A model generated the notes under the pieces. It searched no databases. It saw nothing but the letters and a program-made list of their open reading frames with translations, and was not told where the DNA came from. A program made the position numbers and the translations under genes. Below, piece by piece: positions 11,160-20,313 of a DNA stretch of 21,298 bases (positions within the stretch are counted from its first letter, which is position 1; every line of letters starts with the position of its first letter). The DNA is from a virus. The stretch covers positions 1 through 21,298 of IMG/VR virus record IMGVR_UViG_3300030451_003583; one strand, given 5' to 3'.

Positions 11160-13508
11160 TTATATTTCTCTCAAAGTTACTTTTAAACTACCTGGACTTC
11201 TTGCAATGGAAATCACTATAAATATAGTGCTAGTAGTCAATCCGTTAAATACAGGCATATTATTTATTACTGTACTTTCAAACTGACAAAAATCTCCTAC
11301 TTCCATACCATAAAAATATTTACTACTATCGCCACTATTAGAACTTTGCGAGTTTATTATTTCTACATTAGCCGTAAATTTTGGAACACCATTTATAGTT
11401 CTATAATAATTAGCAAAACTGTCGTTTCTATTTCCCGATCCAGTATTTATAGCAGATGTTGATTTATCTAAATCTCCATCATCTATCAATATATCTAATG
11501 TGTTAGTTACTATATTTTCATTGCTTTGTATATTATAATTTGATCGTATAGAATTTGTAGTATCTTCTGCTGTTTGTTCATATATCTGTTTATCTGTAAT
11601 TGGACTTTTTTGATATTTTATAATTCTTTTGGTAACTAGTTTATCTATAGGACTAACTGATAAGTCAAAAGAAGATATATCTTCTAAACCTATTTTATGA
11701 TCTACTGTCGGATTACTATTCGGTATATGAATATATTGAGGTTTATCATCACTAGTTCTAAATCTGAATACGAATCCACCTTCAAATTGTATTTTTTCTA
11801 AAAGTTTTTTTACTTCTATTGGTTTTGTATTCCAATATTCTACTTTCCAACCAGATCGAGCAGATGCCATATCACTATATCCCTCTGGTGTTTCTGACGA
11901 TCCACCTCTGCCAGTAAACCTCGATAGTATATCTCTGTGCATATCAATTACGTTTGTTACTACGCCACTTCCAAAATGTTTTTCAAATCCGTCACCACCA
12001 AAATATAATTTTTTTATAGAGGTTACAGCAGATTGATGCTCCAATGGATTTGATTCACTATCAGATGATCCTTCGTCTACAATTTCTGCCTTTGCAATAA
12101 TTTGTATATCTTTAATTTTTACAGTCATTGAAGAAGTTTCTGCGTTGTGCATATTTACACTATTAAACAATAAAGATATTTCAAAACTAGCAGGAGCATT
12201 ACCGTCAGACTTAGAAAAATCAGATAAAAAATCAAATGTATGACTAAATGATCCGTTAGCATCTTTTGAATCATCAGTTTCTGTTTCTACTGTATCATCT
12301 CCGTCAAACAAACCACGACATTGTACTGATACTTCGTATGCGTCTTGTGAACTTGATCCACCAAAACCATTATTATAACTTGCAACATCGTAGGAAATAA
12401 AAACACTATATGCTGTAACTTTATGATCCTCTTTTGTAGGACTAAATTTTATTCTAAAAAAATCATTGGCGTCCTTGTCAGAGTTTGTTGCTGCCGAAGT
12501 AACTCTATGATTTATTTGAAAAAAACTGCTTGTACTTGTATCTGTTGCATTTGCCTGTGGATTTAAACCTTCTAATTCGAAAGGATCTGCGTGTACATTG
12601 TCACTATCAATTACTTCTGAAGTTGAATCTATCTTCGGACGATATTTATATTCTCTCAATAAATTAAGTTGTGATTGTATTACATTTCTATTTGTATCTG
12701 CTGTTTCAGATTCGTATGTATTTATAGATGTTAGATTATTTGTTTTATTATTACTACCGTCTAATTGTTCTATTGGTGCAAATATAGGATAAGAGTCAGA
12801 ATTTCTAAAAGCATCTTTAACAGGATAATGCAAAAATTCATTAGAAAAAGATCTGTGTATCAAGCAATTATATCTACCACCATTCAAAGTATCTACTTCT
12901 ACTGGAAAAACTTTTACATCGCTATCTTCGTCTACTAATGCAGGACTAGCGTCTGTCGAGGCAACTGTTTTTTTATAATCTCCATAAACAATAGGATAAT
13001 AATTACCAGAGTCTGATTGAAATTGTGGTATTTTTATAAAATCTATAGGTGTTGCAGACGCAATAGTTAAAGTTACTTGATGATTGCTATTTAACTTTAC
13101 ATCTTTAAGTCTACCTGTAAATACTGTCAAATAATCTCCACTAGATATACTGCCTACTTTAGACTGAACAGTAACAGTATGATTCAAATAATACCTTGTG
13201 CCTTGATTTAATATTTCTTCTGATAATTTAGCGTCAGAGTGATTAGCTAATTGTCCATTGTGACACACTATACTAATATTTCCTGTTTTTGCCGTACCTT
13301 TTTCTAAATCAATAGATTCACGAATTGACATATTATTTAAAATAAAAGGGTGGTAAACGGCATCTGTACCTGCACCTACTTCTTCCGTGCCTAATCTTAT
13401 GTATGCTGCTGTTCCACTACCACCAGTATTTGATATTTGTACTAGCCAAGATTCTGCAAATCCCTGTGCTAATGCAGATCGATAATTAGATTGTAATGTT
13501 AAAGCCAT
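11160..13508 (-). CDS. Large tail hub / baseplate-like protein (782 aa)
   Basis: Located directly after the tape measure, where siphophages keep tail-tip proteins. The N-terminal 160 residues are beta-rich with 'DYLTVFTGRLKDVKL' and 'HQVTLTIASAT', as in tail-hub domains. A central region rich in Ser, Thr, Asp and Asn may be an insertion exposed on the virion. Around residues 560-620 'IEVKKLLEKIQFEGGFVFRF' resembles hub proteins that build the tail tip ring. It may include receptor-binding parts. It starts in a TAATG overlap with the tape-measure stop. Confidence 0.6.
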   Translation of the reverse strand: MALTLQSNYRSALAQGFAESWLVQISNTGGSGTAAYIRLGTEEVGAGTDAVYHPFILNNMSIRESIDLEKGTAKTGNISIVCHNGQLANHSDAKLSEEILNQGTRYYLNHTVTVQSKVGSISSGDYLTVFTGRLKDVKLNSNHQVTLTIASATPIDFIKIPQFQSDSGNYYPIVYGDYKKTVASTDASPALVDEDSDVKVFPVEVDTLNGGRYNCLIHRSFSNEFLHYPVKDAFRNSDSYPIFAPIEQLDGSNNKTNNLTSINTYESETADTNRNVIQSQLNLLREYKYRPKIDSTSEVIDSDNVHADPFELEGLNPQANATDTSTSSFFQINHRVTSAATNSDKDANDFFRIKFSPTKEDHKVTAYSVFISYDVASYNNGFGGSSSQDAYEVSVQCRGLFDGDDTVETETDDSKDANGSFSHTFDFLSDFSKSDGNAPASFEISLLFNSVNMHNAETSSMTVKIKDIQIIAKAEIVDEGSSDSESNPLEHQSAVTSIKKLYFGGDGFEKHFGSGVVTNVIDMHRDILSRFTGRGGSSETPEGYSDMASARSGWKVEYWNTKPIEVKKLLEKIQFEGGFVFRFRTSDDKPQYIHIPNSNPTVDHKIGLEDISSFDLSVSPIDKLVTKRIIKYQKSPITDKQIYEQTAEDTTNSIRSNYNIQSNENIVTNTLDILIDDGDLDKSTSAINTGSGNRNDSFANYYRTINGVPKFTANVEIINSQSSNSGDSSKYFYGMEVGDFCQFESTVINNMPVFNGLTTSTIFIVISIARSPGSLKVTLREI

Positions 13509-15664
13509 TATGCAAGATTTCTCCCTACGGCATTTTCTATTTCTGGTATAAGCGTATCTCTTACAAACTCATCTGTGCCAAGTATATTACCATTTAAGTT
13601 AATAGTAACAGAACTATCTCCACCTGCAGATCCACCTGCATTACCGAGAGGTGTTACTTGAACTCTTTCTCTACCTGTTGGATTATCTCCAACCATAATC
13701 ATTTGTCTACCTTGTGTAATAAAGTCTGCTCCGATTGCTGCTTTTCTTGCTGCATCTATCTGTGATTTAAATTGTGCAACTTTTGTCATACCTGCAGCAA
13801 ATAAACTTAATGCTTTACCAAGACTTCCTTCTTTCAATGCTTCTGTAAATGCTAATAAAGTATTACCAATAGCTAACGCTTGGCGAAGTCTTAATAATGA
13901 TATAGTGACTTCTTTGTTGCCTTTAGAAAACTGCATTGCTGCACCTGCTAAATCATCAAATGCTTTTATAGAATCCTCGTTTTCTTCTTTAAATTTTACT
14001 AAATCATCTCCGAGTTTTTGTAAGAAACTTCTTTCATCTTCGCCACCTAAACCAGTTTCTTGTTGATATTTTAATATTGCTTCTCTTAATAAATTTATTT
14101 GATCTATGGTTGCTTGATTTTCATCAAAAGATATTTCTCCACTAAATATTCGATCTAATATATCTGCAAAAGGAGATACATTTGCCATTTCACTAGTATC
14201 GCCTAAATCTCCAAAGTTTAATGCCATAGCAGCTGCTATATTTGTCATAAAATCATTATCATTAAAAGTTCTAGTGAGTTCTTCTGGTGTTAAAACGCCG
14301 TCTGCTAAAACTTCATTAAAAAAATTTCTTAATTCTGTTACATTAGCATTTCTTGCATCATTGGTAAATTCAAAAAGTTTATCATCAAATTTGTCAAATA
14401 AATTATCAAATCCAAATGCACCACTATCAGTCATTAGTTGTTCTATGTTAATTGCAGGAAATCCAGTTTCTAATGTTTTAATTAAGTCATCAAAAAAAGT
14501 TACTTCAGTAGTTGGAATATCTCTTAACTGTTGATTTAACATTTGCAATGCTTCATTAGGATTATCTCTTAATGCGTTTCCAAACTCGATTACTCTTTGT
14601 TCATTTGATTCATTAAAAAATTTTCGTAAGTCTAAATCATCTGAAGCAAAACCTATTTCTTTCATTATGGACAACACTTTGTCATCTAACACATTTCCTA
14701 AATTATTTTGAAAACTAATAGTTTTTTGAGATTCTTTATTTAAACTTGCGAAAAACTCTGTAAACTTATTATCAGGTGTTTCATTTAAAGATTCTATAAA
14801 CTCTGTTGTTAAGTTTGTAATACCTAATACAAACGGCTCTAACTTACCACCACCAGTTTCAAGCAAATCCCCAAATGCAGAACTTAATCTACCAAATGCT
14901 ATAGTTGTAGCATCTACATTTAATGCAGTTCCACCAAACTGTATTTCTAATTCTTTTAAAATAATTTCTTGTGCTTTTACAGTTTGATTCGTTTTGTCTA
15001 ACTGTTTAATCATTGCTTTTTGTTGATCGGTAAACTGAATACCTATTCTTTGCAATGCTGCTACCCCACGAGCAGGATCATTCAATGCTTTACCTACTTG
15101 TATAGCAGATTGTTGTAAATCTTGTCCGAGTGCAACAGAAATATTTAATATTGCCTCTGTAGCATCTTTAAATACCTGCCCTTTAATTTGTGTGAAGGTT
15201 AATAAAACACCTTGCATAGATAGTATTGTTTCATCTCCAATACCTGTCAATCTTTGCATTTGTGAAGCAAGTCCTTGCAATTCTCTTGAACTAACACCTG
15301 CAGCAAACTTGGTAGATCGTAATGTTTGATTTAATTTTGCTACTGCTCTTTCTTGTTCTGAAAAAGCTCTAATCAATCTACCAACTGTTCTATCAGCTAA
15401 GTTGAATGCAAAAGTTACAAGAAGTAACTGTGAACGAAAAGTTGCAAAACTTATTCTTGCTTTACTAGCATTATTTGTTAATCGATTAAAACTTACTCCA
15501 AATAATCCTGTTTGTTTTCTTGCTTTGTTTTGTGCAGCAGCAAGTTTCCTTGTTGCATCATCTAGTTTTTTTTGTGCGTTTGCAGCAGTCGTAAATGCTT
15601 TTGCTAGTTCTTTATCTCCAGTCGCTTCAAACCGTACCTGTACTTTTAAATCTGTTTCAGCCAT
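13508..15664 (-). CDS. Tail length tape-measure protein (718 aa)
   Basis: Begins MAETDLKVQVRFEATGDKEL, then a long coiled-coil (residues about 20-55), a hydrophobic segment near 75-100 (QLLLVTFAFNLADRT) and the conserved tape-measure core 'ALGQDLQQSAIQVGKAL-NDPARGVAALQRIGIQFT' near 180-220. The C-terminal third has hydrophobic helices (LFAAGMTKVAQFKSQI) and a Gly-rich tail. By the usual rule of about 1.5 angstroms per residue the tail would be roughly 110 nm. It sits after the chaperone pair as in lambda-like phages. Confidence 0.85.
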   Translation of the reverse strand: MAETDLKVQVRFEATGDKELAKAFTTAANAQKKLDDATRKLAAAQNKARKQTGLFGVSFNRLTNNASKARISFATFRSQLLLVTFAFNLADRTVGRLIRAFSEQERAVAKLNQTLRSTKFAAGVSSRELQGLASQMQRLTGIGDETILSMQGVLLTFTQIKGQVFKDATEAILNISVALGQDLQQSAIQVGKALNDPARGVAALQRIGIQFTDQQKAMIKQLDKTNQTVKAQEIILKELEIQFGGTALNVDATTIAFGRLSSAFGDLLETGGGKLEPFVLGITNLTTEFIESLNETPDNKFTEFFASLNKESQKTISFQNNLGNVLDDKVLSIMKEIGFASDDLDLRKFFNESNEQRVIEFGNALRDNPNEALQMLNQQLRDIPTTEVTFFDDLIKTLETGFPAINIEQLMTDSGAFGFDNLFDKFDDKLFEFTNDARNANVTELRNFFNEVLADGVLTPEELTRTFNDNDFMTNIAAAMALNFGDLGDTSEMANVSPFADILDRIFSGEISFDENQATIDQINLLREAILKYQQETGLGGEDERSFLQKLGDDLVKFKEENEDSIKAFDDLAGAAMQFSKGNKEVTISLLRLRQALAIGNTLLAFTEALKEGSLGKALSLFAAGMTKVAQFKSQIDAARKAAIGADFITQGRQMIMVGDNPTGRERVQVTPLGNAGGSAGGDSSVTINLNGNILGTDEFVRDTLIPEIENAVGRNLA

Positions 15665-16070
15665 TTTCTTTTATTTTATATTGTTGTGATTGAATATAAT
15701 TTAACATTTTTTCTATAACATTGCACTTATCAATCCATTTTTTTGGTTGATTTCCGTATGATCCTGGATAAGGTGGTACTTTCATCTTTTTGCAATATAT
15801 AAACTTTTGTATATCTCTTTGATATTCTTTGCTTAAAAAATGATTAGGACAAGAAAAAAACGGTAGATGTGATACGATTGCTTGATGCAATTCAAATTTC
15901 TTTTTTGATGTTTTATTGTGTTCTATTAACTCTTCTTTGAGAAGTCCTATAACTTCCCATACATCGTCCATAGATGTAAAGGTGTGAACGCTGTTATTCT
16001 TTTTTAGAGGTAACTTAGCTTTATATGGAAAGGTAGAATACTGACAACCCTCACACCAATCATCTAACAA
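15657..16070 (-). CDS. T part of the tail assembly chaperone (made by -1 frameshift)
   Basis: This frame lies directly after the 87-residue chaperone and before the tape measure, the place of gene T in lambda. Its only stand-alone start is a TTG at 16070 without a ribosome site, but it joins the upstream gene without a stop after a -1 slip at GGGGGAA. The segment has CEGC near its start and CPNHF in the middle, and a basic C-terminus. The fused product would help the tape measure and tail tube assemble. Confidence 0.65.
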   Translation of the reverse strand: MLDDWCEGCQYSTFPYKAKLPLKKNNSVHTFTSMDDVWEVIGLLKEELIEHNKTSKKKFELHQAIVSHLPFFSCPNHFLSKEYQRDIQKFIYCKKMKVPPYPGSYGNQPKKWIDKCNVIEKMLNYIQSQQYKIKENG

Positions 16071-16360
16071 TATATTTAATTCTAGTGAGAGGGATTCTAT
16101 TCCCCCAAGCTATTGTAATCCTGTATAGCTACTTGCAGTTCTGCTCTATCATCTATTGATAAAGACTTAATAAATTTATCATCTACTGATTCTACGCCTG
16201 ATCTAATCCATAGCGTACTTAAAGCAAATTGATTTTTAATTACTGCTTGTCCGTCTACCATATCTACGACAACTGCGTCCATACATTTGTCAAAATCGTC
16301 TACAGACATCTCTTTTAGAGTAGCTTTAATACCACTCTTAAGTGTTATTTTTTTAGACAT
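15657..16360 (-). CDS. Fused tail assembly chaperone GT, ribosomal -1 frameshift product (about 234 aa)
   Basis: Reading 16360 to the slippery GGGGGAA (16106-16100), stepping back one base and continuing to 15657 gives one uninterrupted frame; 704 bases plus the re-read base equals 235 codons including stop. The junction reads NSLG-GIESLSLELNILLDD. A 9-position stem with one mismatch starts six bases downstream of the heptamer. Tail chaperone pairs in siphophages are commonly made this way, so gene order supports it too. Not proven without protein data. Confidence 0.6.
16048..16106 (-). other. Candidate programmed -1 frameshift signal
   Basis: Slippery G-GGG-GAA (16106-16100) lies just before the zero-frame TAG (16099-16097). 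After a six-base spacer, CCCTCTCAC (16093-16085) pairs with GTGTGAGGG (16056-16048) with one T-T mismatch and a 28-base loop. The P-site GGG re-pairs perfectly after slipping; the A-site GAA-to-GGA step is imperfect, so C-TTG-GGG just upstream is an alternative slip point. Confidence 0.6.
16097..16360 (-). CDS. Tail assembly chaperone, G-like (87 aa)
   Basis: Begins MSKKITLKSGIKATLKEMSV after AAAGGATAATCA. Small, acidic, helical, with the 'SGIKATLKEMSVDDFDKCMD' opening and 'ALSTLWIRSGVES' segment seen in gpG-type chaperones that follow the major tail protein. It ends SLGE-TAG at the slippery run, so most ribosomes should stop here and a minority extend into T. This would give the usual G:GT excess. 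Confidence 0.65.
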   Translation of the reverse strand: MSKKITLKSGIKATLKEMSVDDFDKCMDAVVVDMVDGQAVIKNQFALSTLWIRSGVESVDDKFIKSLSIDDRAELQVAIQDYNSLGE

Positions 16361-16378: not shown

Positions 16379-17395
16379 TTATTCTATAGTGATAGCAACT
16401 AAATCTCCAGAAGTACCTGCTACACCTCTTGTACTTACTGACAAGAACATAGCTTCTTCTTCTGAAAAAGATACATCTGTTATAATTGCTTTCGGTATTG
16501 AAAAATCTACATTTCTAGTAACACTATCTTTTGCAGTCAAAGTATTAGCAACAGTTGATGATCCGTCTTGTCCTTCAAAGGTAGCGACTAATCCGTCTGT
16601 GTCTGCGTCATACTTAATAACAGAATCAAATGTTACAGATGCTTCTGGTAAAGCTCTTGCAATAATTTGAAAACTACCTGCAGCATTGAATCCCATAAAT
16701 TGTGCATCATTTTCTATTGTACAACTGAATGATTTCATAATAGGATCTGCAACACCTGCAATAACTGTTACTGCATTTGTGTCAGCATCATCTCCATAAT
16801 CTGTTGTAAAATAGTTTGTATTAAAGTGAGCTGTGCTAGTAGGATTTAAATTACTTGTAAAACTTGGTTTCATACCACTTTTGAAAGTTCCAGACATTTT
16901 AATTCTTCCTGATTCTTCAGCAATATCTCCATTTAAAGTCAATGAAGTTAAAACACAGCCAGTAAATAACATTGAGTTACTAGCTTCTGGAACGTTTAAT
17001 AATATGCTAAAAGTACCTACATCTGCAGTAGATGTACTGTCGCCTACTTTTAACTCTGAAGGATCGTATGATGCAGGTATAGAAGAAGCACCACTTGCAT
17101 CTTGTGTAATATTTTTGACTAATTTAGGTAAAATAGTTGCGTCTGCAATTCCTGAAAAACTTATTTCTTTAATAGTAAGATTGTTTGATAGGAACATATC
17201 TACTTCTTTTAAAGTTCTTCCTGCTCCGTGTCTTACATCTAAAACTTGTTGTGGATTCAATGAAGGCATTTCGATTGAATCAATATTCATTAATATATAA
17301 TCTCCTACCGTAGAACTTGCTGTACCTACTGTTGCCTCGTGAGCAATAGCTAACTCAAATTCTTTCGGAGAAAATGCTGTACTTAGATTTGCCAT
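16379..17395 (-). CDS. Major tail protein (338 aa)
   Basis: Begins MANLSTAFSPKEFELAIAHE. Beta-rich throughout, Ser/Thr/Asp-rich, with the pattern of tail-tube subunits: an N-terminal strand pair (DYILMNIDSIEMP), a middle 'GCVLTSLTLNGDIAEESGRI...SGTFKS' and C-terminal strands ending GDLVAITIE. The 'LTLNG..AEESGRI..SG.F' segment is typical of siphophage tube proteins. Its place before the chaperone pair matches lambda V. The length suggests an added C-terminal Ig-like or similar domain. Confidence 0.75.
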   Translation of the reverse strand: MANLSTAFSPKEFELAIAHEATVGTASSTVGDYILMNIDSIEMPSLNPQQVLDVRHGAGRTLKEVDMFLSNNLTIKEISFSGIADATILPKLVKNITQDASGASSIPASYDPSELKVGDSTSTADVGTFSILLNVPEASNSMLFTGCVLTSLTLNGDIAEESGRIKMSGTFKSGMKPSFTSNLNPTSTAHFNTNYFTTDYGDDADTNAVTVIAGVADPIMKSFSCTIENDAQFMGFNAAGSFQIIARALPEASVTFDSVIKYDADTDGLVATFEGQDGSSTVANTLTAKDSVTRNVDFSIPKAIITDVSFSEEEAMFLSVSTRGVAGTSGDLVAITIE

Positions 17396-19468: not shown

Positions 19469-19942
19469 TTACTCTCCTTTGGCTCTTTTATACCACCCAT
19501 ACCAAAATTTTTCTTGTGTGGGGTTATCAGAAATTAGCAAAGAATAGAATAAAATTCTATATGAAATAAATCTATCTGCCTCTAATTTTTTACAAGCAGA
19601 TATTGTTGCAGCACCAATTAATCCATCTTCTTTAATTTCAAAAGTATTTTTATTGTTACACGCTTGTTGCAGTATCTTTACTGCTCTGCGTTGCCCAGTA
19701 TTGACTACACAATCAAAGTATGGATAGCGTAATTCTTTCGGTAGTGATTTGGCTTTAGAAGGAATCCAGTAGTCTTGATAATAAATTTCTTTAGCTTGTT
19801 CTCTAGTTAAGTTCTTGATGTCAAGATGAGGATAGAATCGTTTGGTTATACCGTACTTAGTTTCCCCACCTAAATCGTCTTTATCATTGACATATCCTCC
19901 TTCGTGTTCGAGAACTTTTTCAATAATTTCGTTGAACTCCAT
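19469..19942 (-). CDS. GH108-type lysozyme / endolysin (157 aa)
   Basis: Starts MEFNEIIEKVLEHEGGYVND. The catalytic Glu14 lies in EGGYVNDKDDLGGETKYGI, the signature of the glycosyl hydrolase 108 family (PF05838). The C-terminal half (FDCVVNTGQRRAVKILQQAC, DGLIGAATISACK) is the PG_binding_3 region. It would cut peptidoglycan at lysis after release by the holin. The frame is open further upstream, but the ATG at 19942 overlaps the holin stop (TAATG) and matches the family start. No signal peptide. Confidence 0.85.
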   Translation of the reverse strand: MEFNEIIEKVLEHEGGYVNDKDDLGGETKYGITKRFYPHLDIKNLTREQAKEIYYQDYWIPSKAKSLPKELRYPYFDCVVNTGQRRAVKILQQACNNKNTFEIKEDGLIGAATISACKKLEADRFISYRILFYSLLISDNPTQEKFWYGWYKRAKGE

Positions 19943-20313
19943 TATGCTGATCTCTTCACTTTTTCGAATGAACGCATTCCCCCCAAACCGAGAAGTCCAA
20001 GAAGTATTGTTGTCAATGTACTCATATCGAATACTGGTAAATCCACTTGATAGCCAAATGAATATACAAGAAAAAGTAAGAACGGCTGTAATACGAAGTG
20101 ATAACATAGTGCTACTCCACAAGTCCAACCAACAAAAGGACGCCAACCTGCAACAAATAAACTATTGCTATTGGCTTCAACTTTATTAACCTCAATTTGT
20201 GCTTTGTTAATTTCTTGTATGAGTTGTGCTTTTTCTGTTTTGTCCAGAGTAAAGTCATCGATTTTATCTGCTACTTTATCTATTATACCTGCTACAACAT
20301 TAAGTTTTGGCAT
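19942..20313 (-). CDS. 3TM holin, GTA type (123 aa)
   Basis: Matches the 3TM holin family described for gene-transfer agents (PF11351): an amphipathic N-terminal helix (EKAQLIQEINKAQIEVNKVE), then 'FVAGWRPFVGWTCGVALCYHF', a second hydrophobic segment (VLQPFLLFLVYSFG), and a third (TLTTILLGLLGLGGMRSFEK). It would form holes in the inner membrane that release the endolysin. Directly coupled to the lysozyme, giving a two-gene lysis cassette. Confidence 0.8.
   Translation of the reverse strand: MPKLNVVAGIIDKVADKIDDFTLDKTEKAQLIQEINKAQIEVNKVEANSNSLFVAGWRPFVGWTCGVALCYHFVLQPFLLFLVYSFGYQVDLPVFDMSTLTTILLGLLGLGGMRSFEKVKRSA

Follow-up and report, generated by a model that had tools for sequence, protein, structure and literature searches.

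A very probable programmed -1 frameshift site, followed by a conserved stem-loop, at the G/GT tail assembly chaperone genes of a siphovirus-like marine phage

Frameshifting by -1 in the G/GT genes is a textbook mechanism of phages, and Xu, Hendrix and Duda are said to have described the general G-T class in 2004. The locus described here resembles the G/GT pair of lambda in its place between the major tail and tape measure genes and in its small G with a chaperone-type fold, near the end of which a -1 shift would give a GT fusion. It is unlike lambda in its heptamer, which is G GGG GAA and not the lambda G GGA AAG, a difference that the preliminary description of this DNA had recognized, and in its strongly conserved stem, S1; sequence similarity to lambda was not detected. 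The heptamer GGGGGAA has been reported in about a thousand motifs of SEA-PHAGES actinobacteriophages and makes up all of the cases in the 'fivetwo' class of PRFect (PMC10885494). Corynephage phi16, for which an internal SD and a downstream structure have been proposed as they are here, also uses it (PMC5506516). We saw GGGGGAA directly in the annotated chaperone pairs of the Mycobacterium phages Nergal and prophiGD43A-5, and in the latter it is followed at once by TAG, as in our locus. The actinobacteriophage 'fivetwo' pairs have the identical heptamer and the same gene order but they are GC-rich, whereas our locus has 30% GC, a different S1 sequence and a long hairpin, LSL, that competes with S1. 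Both the kind of mechanism and the heptamer are already known, and the conserved competitor LSL is the sole part that may be new. The GC-rich actinobacteriophage-like loci L488 (prophiGD43A-5), L337, L371 and L403 carry the decamer GGGGGAATAG at the same place. Homology with the pairs in L337, L371 and L403 that share GGGGGAATAG was considered and none could be demonstrated. BetterKatz has a tape measure distantly related to that of the window, and its first chaperone gene ends in GGGAAAATAG instead of GGGGGAATAG.

The window, that is, the whole stretch of DNA that was analysed, belongs to an uncultured virus in IMG/VR, spans 21,298 bases and has 30% GC. On its minus strand a 338-aa ORF is followed by the 87-aa G, the overlapping -1-frame ORF T and the 718-aa tape measure (Table 1). 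Two overlapping ORFs, the second in the -1 frame, thus adjoin the tape measure upstream as in the G/GT class, and the T stop and the tape measure ATG overlap by 8 nt. The order of major tail, chaperone pair and tape measure, called classic in the preliminary description, holds for the tape measure through phrog_27166 and for the major tail by position only, protein-family searches with the 338-aa ORF giving no match. The tape measure also matched TMP_2 with an E of 5e-7, slightly below the TMP_2 cut-off. Runs of at least five G occur only four times on both strands of the window. A GGGGGG run on the minus strand (19984-19979) lies where a holin-like ORF (19942-20313) is overlapped by the reading frame of a lysozyme-like ORF, which continues without a stop upstream of the lysozyme-like ATG; this may be a second shifty place or a mere overlap.

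Table 1. Positions of the features of the locus in the window
Feature	Position	Strand	Basis or remark
Putative major tail protein, 338-aa ORF	16379..17395	-	Inferred from gene order, directly upstream of G
Gene G, 87-aa tail assembly chaperone (0-frame product)	16097..16360	-	ORF and predicted fold
SD-like CAGGA, possible internal stimulator	16119..16123	-	12 nt before the G run
-1-frame stop TAG, upstream bound for a productive slip	16110..16112	-	Read from sequence
Slippery heptamer G GGG GAA	16100..16106	-	Invariant in 81 distinct close sequences
Gene G 0-frame stop TAG	16097..16099	-	Read from sequence
Stem-loop S1, predicted stimulator of -1 slippage	16048..16093	-	Conservation, compensation, codon-shuffle z
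Long competing hairpin LSL	15972..16065	-	Constraint, codon shuffles, paired substitutions
ORF T in the -1 frame, predicted to form the C-terminal portion of GT	15657..16109	-	Open frame, protein conservation
Tape measure protein	13508..15664	-	phrog_27166 tail length tape measure, E 4e-34

The AlphaFold2 model of G has a pLDDT of 94. In BFVD its matches, with a probability of about 1.00, included proteins annotated as tail assembly chaperones in Halobacterium phage ChaoS9 and Bacillus phage Gemini, and its best match among 350,542 PDB chains was the HK97 chaperone 2OB9, although this match was weak (E 0.09, probability 0.63, TM 0.35-0.40). These matches point to a tail-assembly-chaperone fold for G as in the G/GT class, the likeness being one of predicted fold only. 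The fold search with T gave no match, and neither G nor T of the window had a trusted match in PHROGs, Pfam or PDB sequences; 3 of 29 T proteins weakly matched the tail assembly chaperone family phrog_9001 (E 5e-4). Sequence searches with G, T and the major tail protein found no relative among named phages and none in 84,980 bacterial and archaeal genomes, and the tape measure alone has named-phage relatives, which are distant. Residues 19, 22 and 87 of T are invariant cysteines in the 29 aligned T proteins (a CxxC and a later C), a pattern that could possibly form a metal site.

The heptamer had been placed directly before the TAG of the 87-residue ORF and this position is exact on the minus strand, with the five G at 16106-16102, the two A at 16101-16100 and ...AGC TTG GGG GAA TAG as the 0-frame reading across the site. 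The -1 frame is open down to 15657 as had been claimed, from just past the TAG at 16112-16110 to the TGA at 15659-15657, and because of this upstream TAG a productive slip is confined to CTT GGG GGA ATA. Of the description of the site as a near-textbook one, the G/GT frameshift reading stands but not the epithet, because the A site departs from the classical X XXY YYZ: GGG to GGG is a perfect re-pairing, and GAA to GGA is changed at the middle position, where only G-U is formed. Since GAA re-pairs with GGA through this middle G-U, on which the authors of PRFect had remarked for GGGGGAA, the site was assigned to the 'fivetwo' class (PMC10885494), and five identical bases followed by two identical ones were found in the window and in all close relatives. 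The perfect re-pairing of GGG, the sole one at the site, would also allow the P-site tRNA-Gly to slip alone, with GGA then decoded as Gly. The predicted junction would be ...NSLGGIESL in that case and ...NSLGEIESL after tandem slippage. All relatives have GAA or GAG as the A-site codon, as expected if tRNA-Glu participates, and such constancy of GAR suggests slippage by tRNA-Glu as well; however, a required C-terminal Glu in G would also explain it. Slippage at the P site alone is a real possibility, if a rather less than even one. Upstream of the heptamer, the SD-like CAGGA is kept in that G codon 80 is CAG in 81 of 81 close sequences and all distinct close sequences match AGGAG in at least 4 of 5 positions, whereas the distant sequences do so only in part.

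Close relatives were gathered by T-protein searches down to 70% identity and, since many of the loci come from duplicate contigs, distinct sequences were counted. The comparison of heptamer and stem in related phages that the preliminary description had proposed as a check showed that GGGGGAA, TAG and both stem arms are invariant in 81 of 81 distinct close sequences. This invariance includes the third codon positions, while the flanking codons vary synonymously. Together with the rarity of G runs in the window, it marks the site as more than a chance occurrence. At T codon 6 the amino acid varies (Thr, Ser or Ala) and yet the two C that open the stem are constant. A distant group, with T proteins about 40-45% identical, first came to light in a DNA-pattern search that was biased towards the site; the search was therefore repeated with motifs of the proteins well away from it, and all 80 loci obtained in this way carry GGGGGAA or GGGGGAG. 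Altogether, one or the other is present in all 104 distant loci, GGGGGAG in 21 of them. The G stop lies 3-21 nt further downstream in 19 of the 104, with heptamer and stem unchanged. Thus the 0-frame stop is not always adjacent, and the conserved element is the heptamer with the stem and not its adjacency to the stop. Related phages without a slippery run had been named as grounds for abandoning the frameshift; there were none among the close or distant relatives found, and the slippery sequence in the overlap is kept as in the G/GT class. The frame break itself could in principle be a sequencing or assembly error, to which homopolymer runs are prone, or the mark of a decayed gene, but the same run and frame relation recur in every relative on about 200 metagenome contigs and both frames are under purifying selection, so that this explanation is barely credible. 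A 51-kb contig, IMGVR_UViG_3300030102_002442, carries two different copies of the locus (L031 and L064) about 33 kb apart, which suggests that it is a chimera or concatemer of two related phages.

If T were a separate gene, it would be translated after G by reinitiation or from an internal start. The downstream frame had been said to have only a TTG start, and indeed the TTG at 16070, which is 27 nt past the G stop, is the sole start before 16048. It is not preceded by an SD, and a TTG at this place, T codon 14, is found in 15 of 34 distinct close sequences and so is missing from over half of them. The close relatives have no ATG in the first 30 codons and no conserved proper start, and in this clade the downstream ORF is thus without an independent start, as in the G/GT class. 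An ATG does occur at T codon 23 in 20 of 57 distant sequences, but it is beyond the conserved N-terminal part. T is kept as a protein down to about 38-47% identity, and its conservation begins right at the slip. A separate T would leave the conserved heptamer and S1 without a role and does not accommodate the 19 distant loci in which G ends later while heptamer and stem are the same. A separate T is therefore very unlikely.

The spacer, stem and loop of the preliminary description were confirmed to the base: a six-base spacer, TAGAAT, at 16099-16094, a stem of nine positions formed by CCCTCTCAC (16093-16085) and GTGTGAGGG (16056-16048) with one mismatch, T-T at 16088/16053, and a 28-base loop at 16084-16057. 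The extent of the structure was underestimated, however, the conserved RNA being much larger than that stem. When the 67-nt stretch was simply shuffled by dinucleotides, z was an unimpressive -0.92; this test being uninformative, it was replaced by synonymous-codon shuffles in which the protein and the codon usage were held fixed. Against these the stability of S1 had a mean z of -3.2 in the close and -2.9 in the distant relatives, and two control stretches of the same gene gave z of about 0. A helix joins the same two places in 91 of 91 distinct sequences, starting about 3-6 nt past the heptamer, with duplex energies of -10.6 to -22.1 kcal/mol. Compared to the window, which has CCCUCUCAC/GUGUGAGGG with the mismatch, relatives have a perfect CCCUCACA/UGUGAGGG; another branch has a register-shifted CCCUCCA/UGGAGGG, L422 has GCCUCCA/UGGAGGC, and in L417 an A-U pair has become G-C. 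An alignment of 35 distinct sequences from the distant group that share one register has 93.4% of its cells paired, versus 46-62% when the partner is slid, and there are double-sided changes at 3 pairs. S1 also exceeded the shuffles of the tool that was used, but that figure is inflated by the relatedness of the sequences and therefore the case rests on the slid control and the compensations. S1 is a conserved RNA structure kept by compensating changes. An Rfam search gave no match over the gathering score, and its lone hit, RefA9, was at chance level (E 2.4) and off the site. In one locus, L215, 19 nt are deleted from the S1 loop with the arms intact and the -1 frame broken, probably an assembly artefact at the hairpin.

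These properties of S1 also bear on RNA polymerase slippage, by which mRNAs with an altered number of G would fuse the frames. A homopolymer run exists at the site, but five G are short for such slippage, and it needs neither a conserved RNA stem, kept by compensation at an almost constant distance, nor an invariant A plus a purine after GGGGG. It is extremely unlikely as the explanation.

Within the clade of the window, synonymous sites remain almost wholly constrained for about 100 nt past S1. Along T, synonymous diversity in the close clade is 0.00 for codons 1-8, 0.42 in codons 9-14 (the loop), 0.00 in 15-21, 0.13 in 22-36, 0.01 in 37-48 and 0.27 from there to the end. LSL has its two strands in codons 15-21 and 37-48, where 16065-16045 pairs with 15972-15993 and is extended by 16040-16035 pairing with 15995-16000. 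Seven pairs of LSL vary yet stay paired through one-sided G-U changes; two pairs are broken solely in L180, the most distant member, and the outermost pairs are broken in a few sequences. In the close relatives LSL had a z of -3.9 against codon shuffles, and of -3.0 when the S1 arm was fixed and only the downstream codons were shuffled. A second stem, H2, downstream of S1 and without its 3' arm, was not significant on its own (z -0.8 to -1.0), and thus the signal lies in the re-use of the S1 arm. In the fold of the window LSL has a basal extension, which the relatives do not conserve. LSL was also tried as a general feature and rejected: the distant group with later G stops gave a z of -0.9, and in the other distant group it was partial, with a z of -1.5. 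S1 is general and LSL is particular to the window's clade. In a separate stretch of T, codons 119-135 (15755-15704), synonymous variation is also nearly absent in the 81 distinct sequences; this stretch precedes the tape measure ATG by 40-90 nt and has no stable fold.

Since LSL uses the 3' arm of S1, it cannot coexist with full S1. In a series of foldings the probability of S1 was about 0.997 until the strand near 15980 was added, and then it was about 0. We tentatively propose, as a possibility and not the likelier course, that this is a switchable RNA stimulator in which S1 folds first, while the mRNA is nascent or has just been translated, and LSL then removes it. Once the strand 15998-15972 is free, LSL would capture the 3' arm of S1 and the stimulator would be lost, and the GT:G ratio would be set by transcription or by a leading ribosome occupying that strand. 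Competing conformations of frameshift elements are known in RNA viruses (for example PMC4737148). As an alternative to the switch, S1 and LSL may be combined in one pseudoknot; by inspection, an H-type pseudoknot of a reduced S1 (CCCUC/GAGGG) and the lower LSL helix is topologically possible. The constraint 3' of S1 could also serve another RNA or DNA function, such as processing, pausing, regulation of the tape measure or packaging, and not frameshifting. LSL starts too far downstream to touch a ribosome on the heptamer and is weak or absent in the distant group, which would fit such a function, but it sits immediately 3' of S1 and shares the S1 3' arm base for base. We regard this other function as conceivable but rather doubtful.

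The conserved heptamer, the conserved S1, the predicted chaperone fold of G and the lack of a conserved start for T, together with the gene order, support the earlier claim of a -1 frameshift that yields a G/GT chaperone fusion. Thus, a siphovirus-like phage from the sea very probably expresses its G/GT tail assembly chaperones through a programmed -1 frameshift at this site. The majority of ribosomes would read G and end at TAG to give the 87-aa chaperone. A minority, paused by S1 six bases past the heptamer and perhaps aided by the SD-like CAGGA 12 nt upstream, would slip by -1 on G GGG GAA, with tRNA-Gly re-pairing perfectly on GGG and tRNA-Glu re-pairing on GGA with the middle G-U. Slipped ribosomes would continue in the -1 frame to give a GT fusion predicted to be 234 aa in all. 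In the G/GT class such a fusion is made in a low proportion to G and tails require it. By analogy with lambda, G would bind the tape measure protein and T would recruit the major tail protein. We infer the occurrence and efficiency of slippage, its tandem or P-site-only mode and the roles of G and GT on the model of the lambda G/GT system (PMC5009743).

The G/GT recoding rule now very probably extends to an uncultured marine phage lineage, at a locus where gene callers would give two unrelated ORFs. Phages of 30% GC are likewise fixed for GGGGGAA, the heptamer familiar from GC-rich actinobacteriophages, and they supply many natural variants for comparing heptamer and stem. If it is true that LSL acts, the phage might tune its chaperone ratio through an RNA switch.
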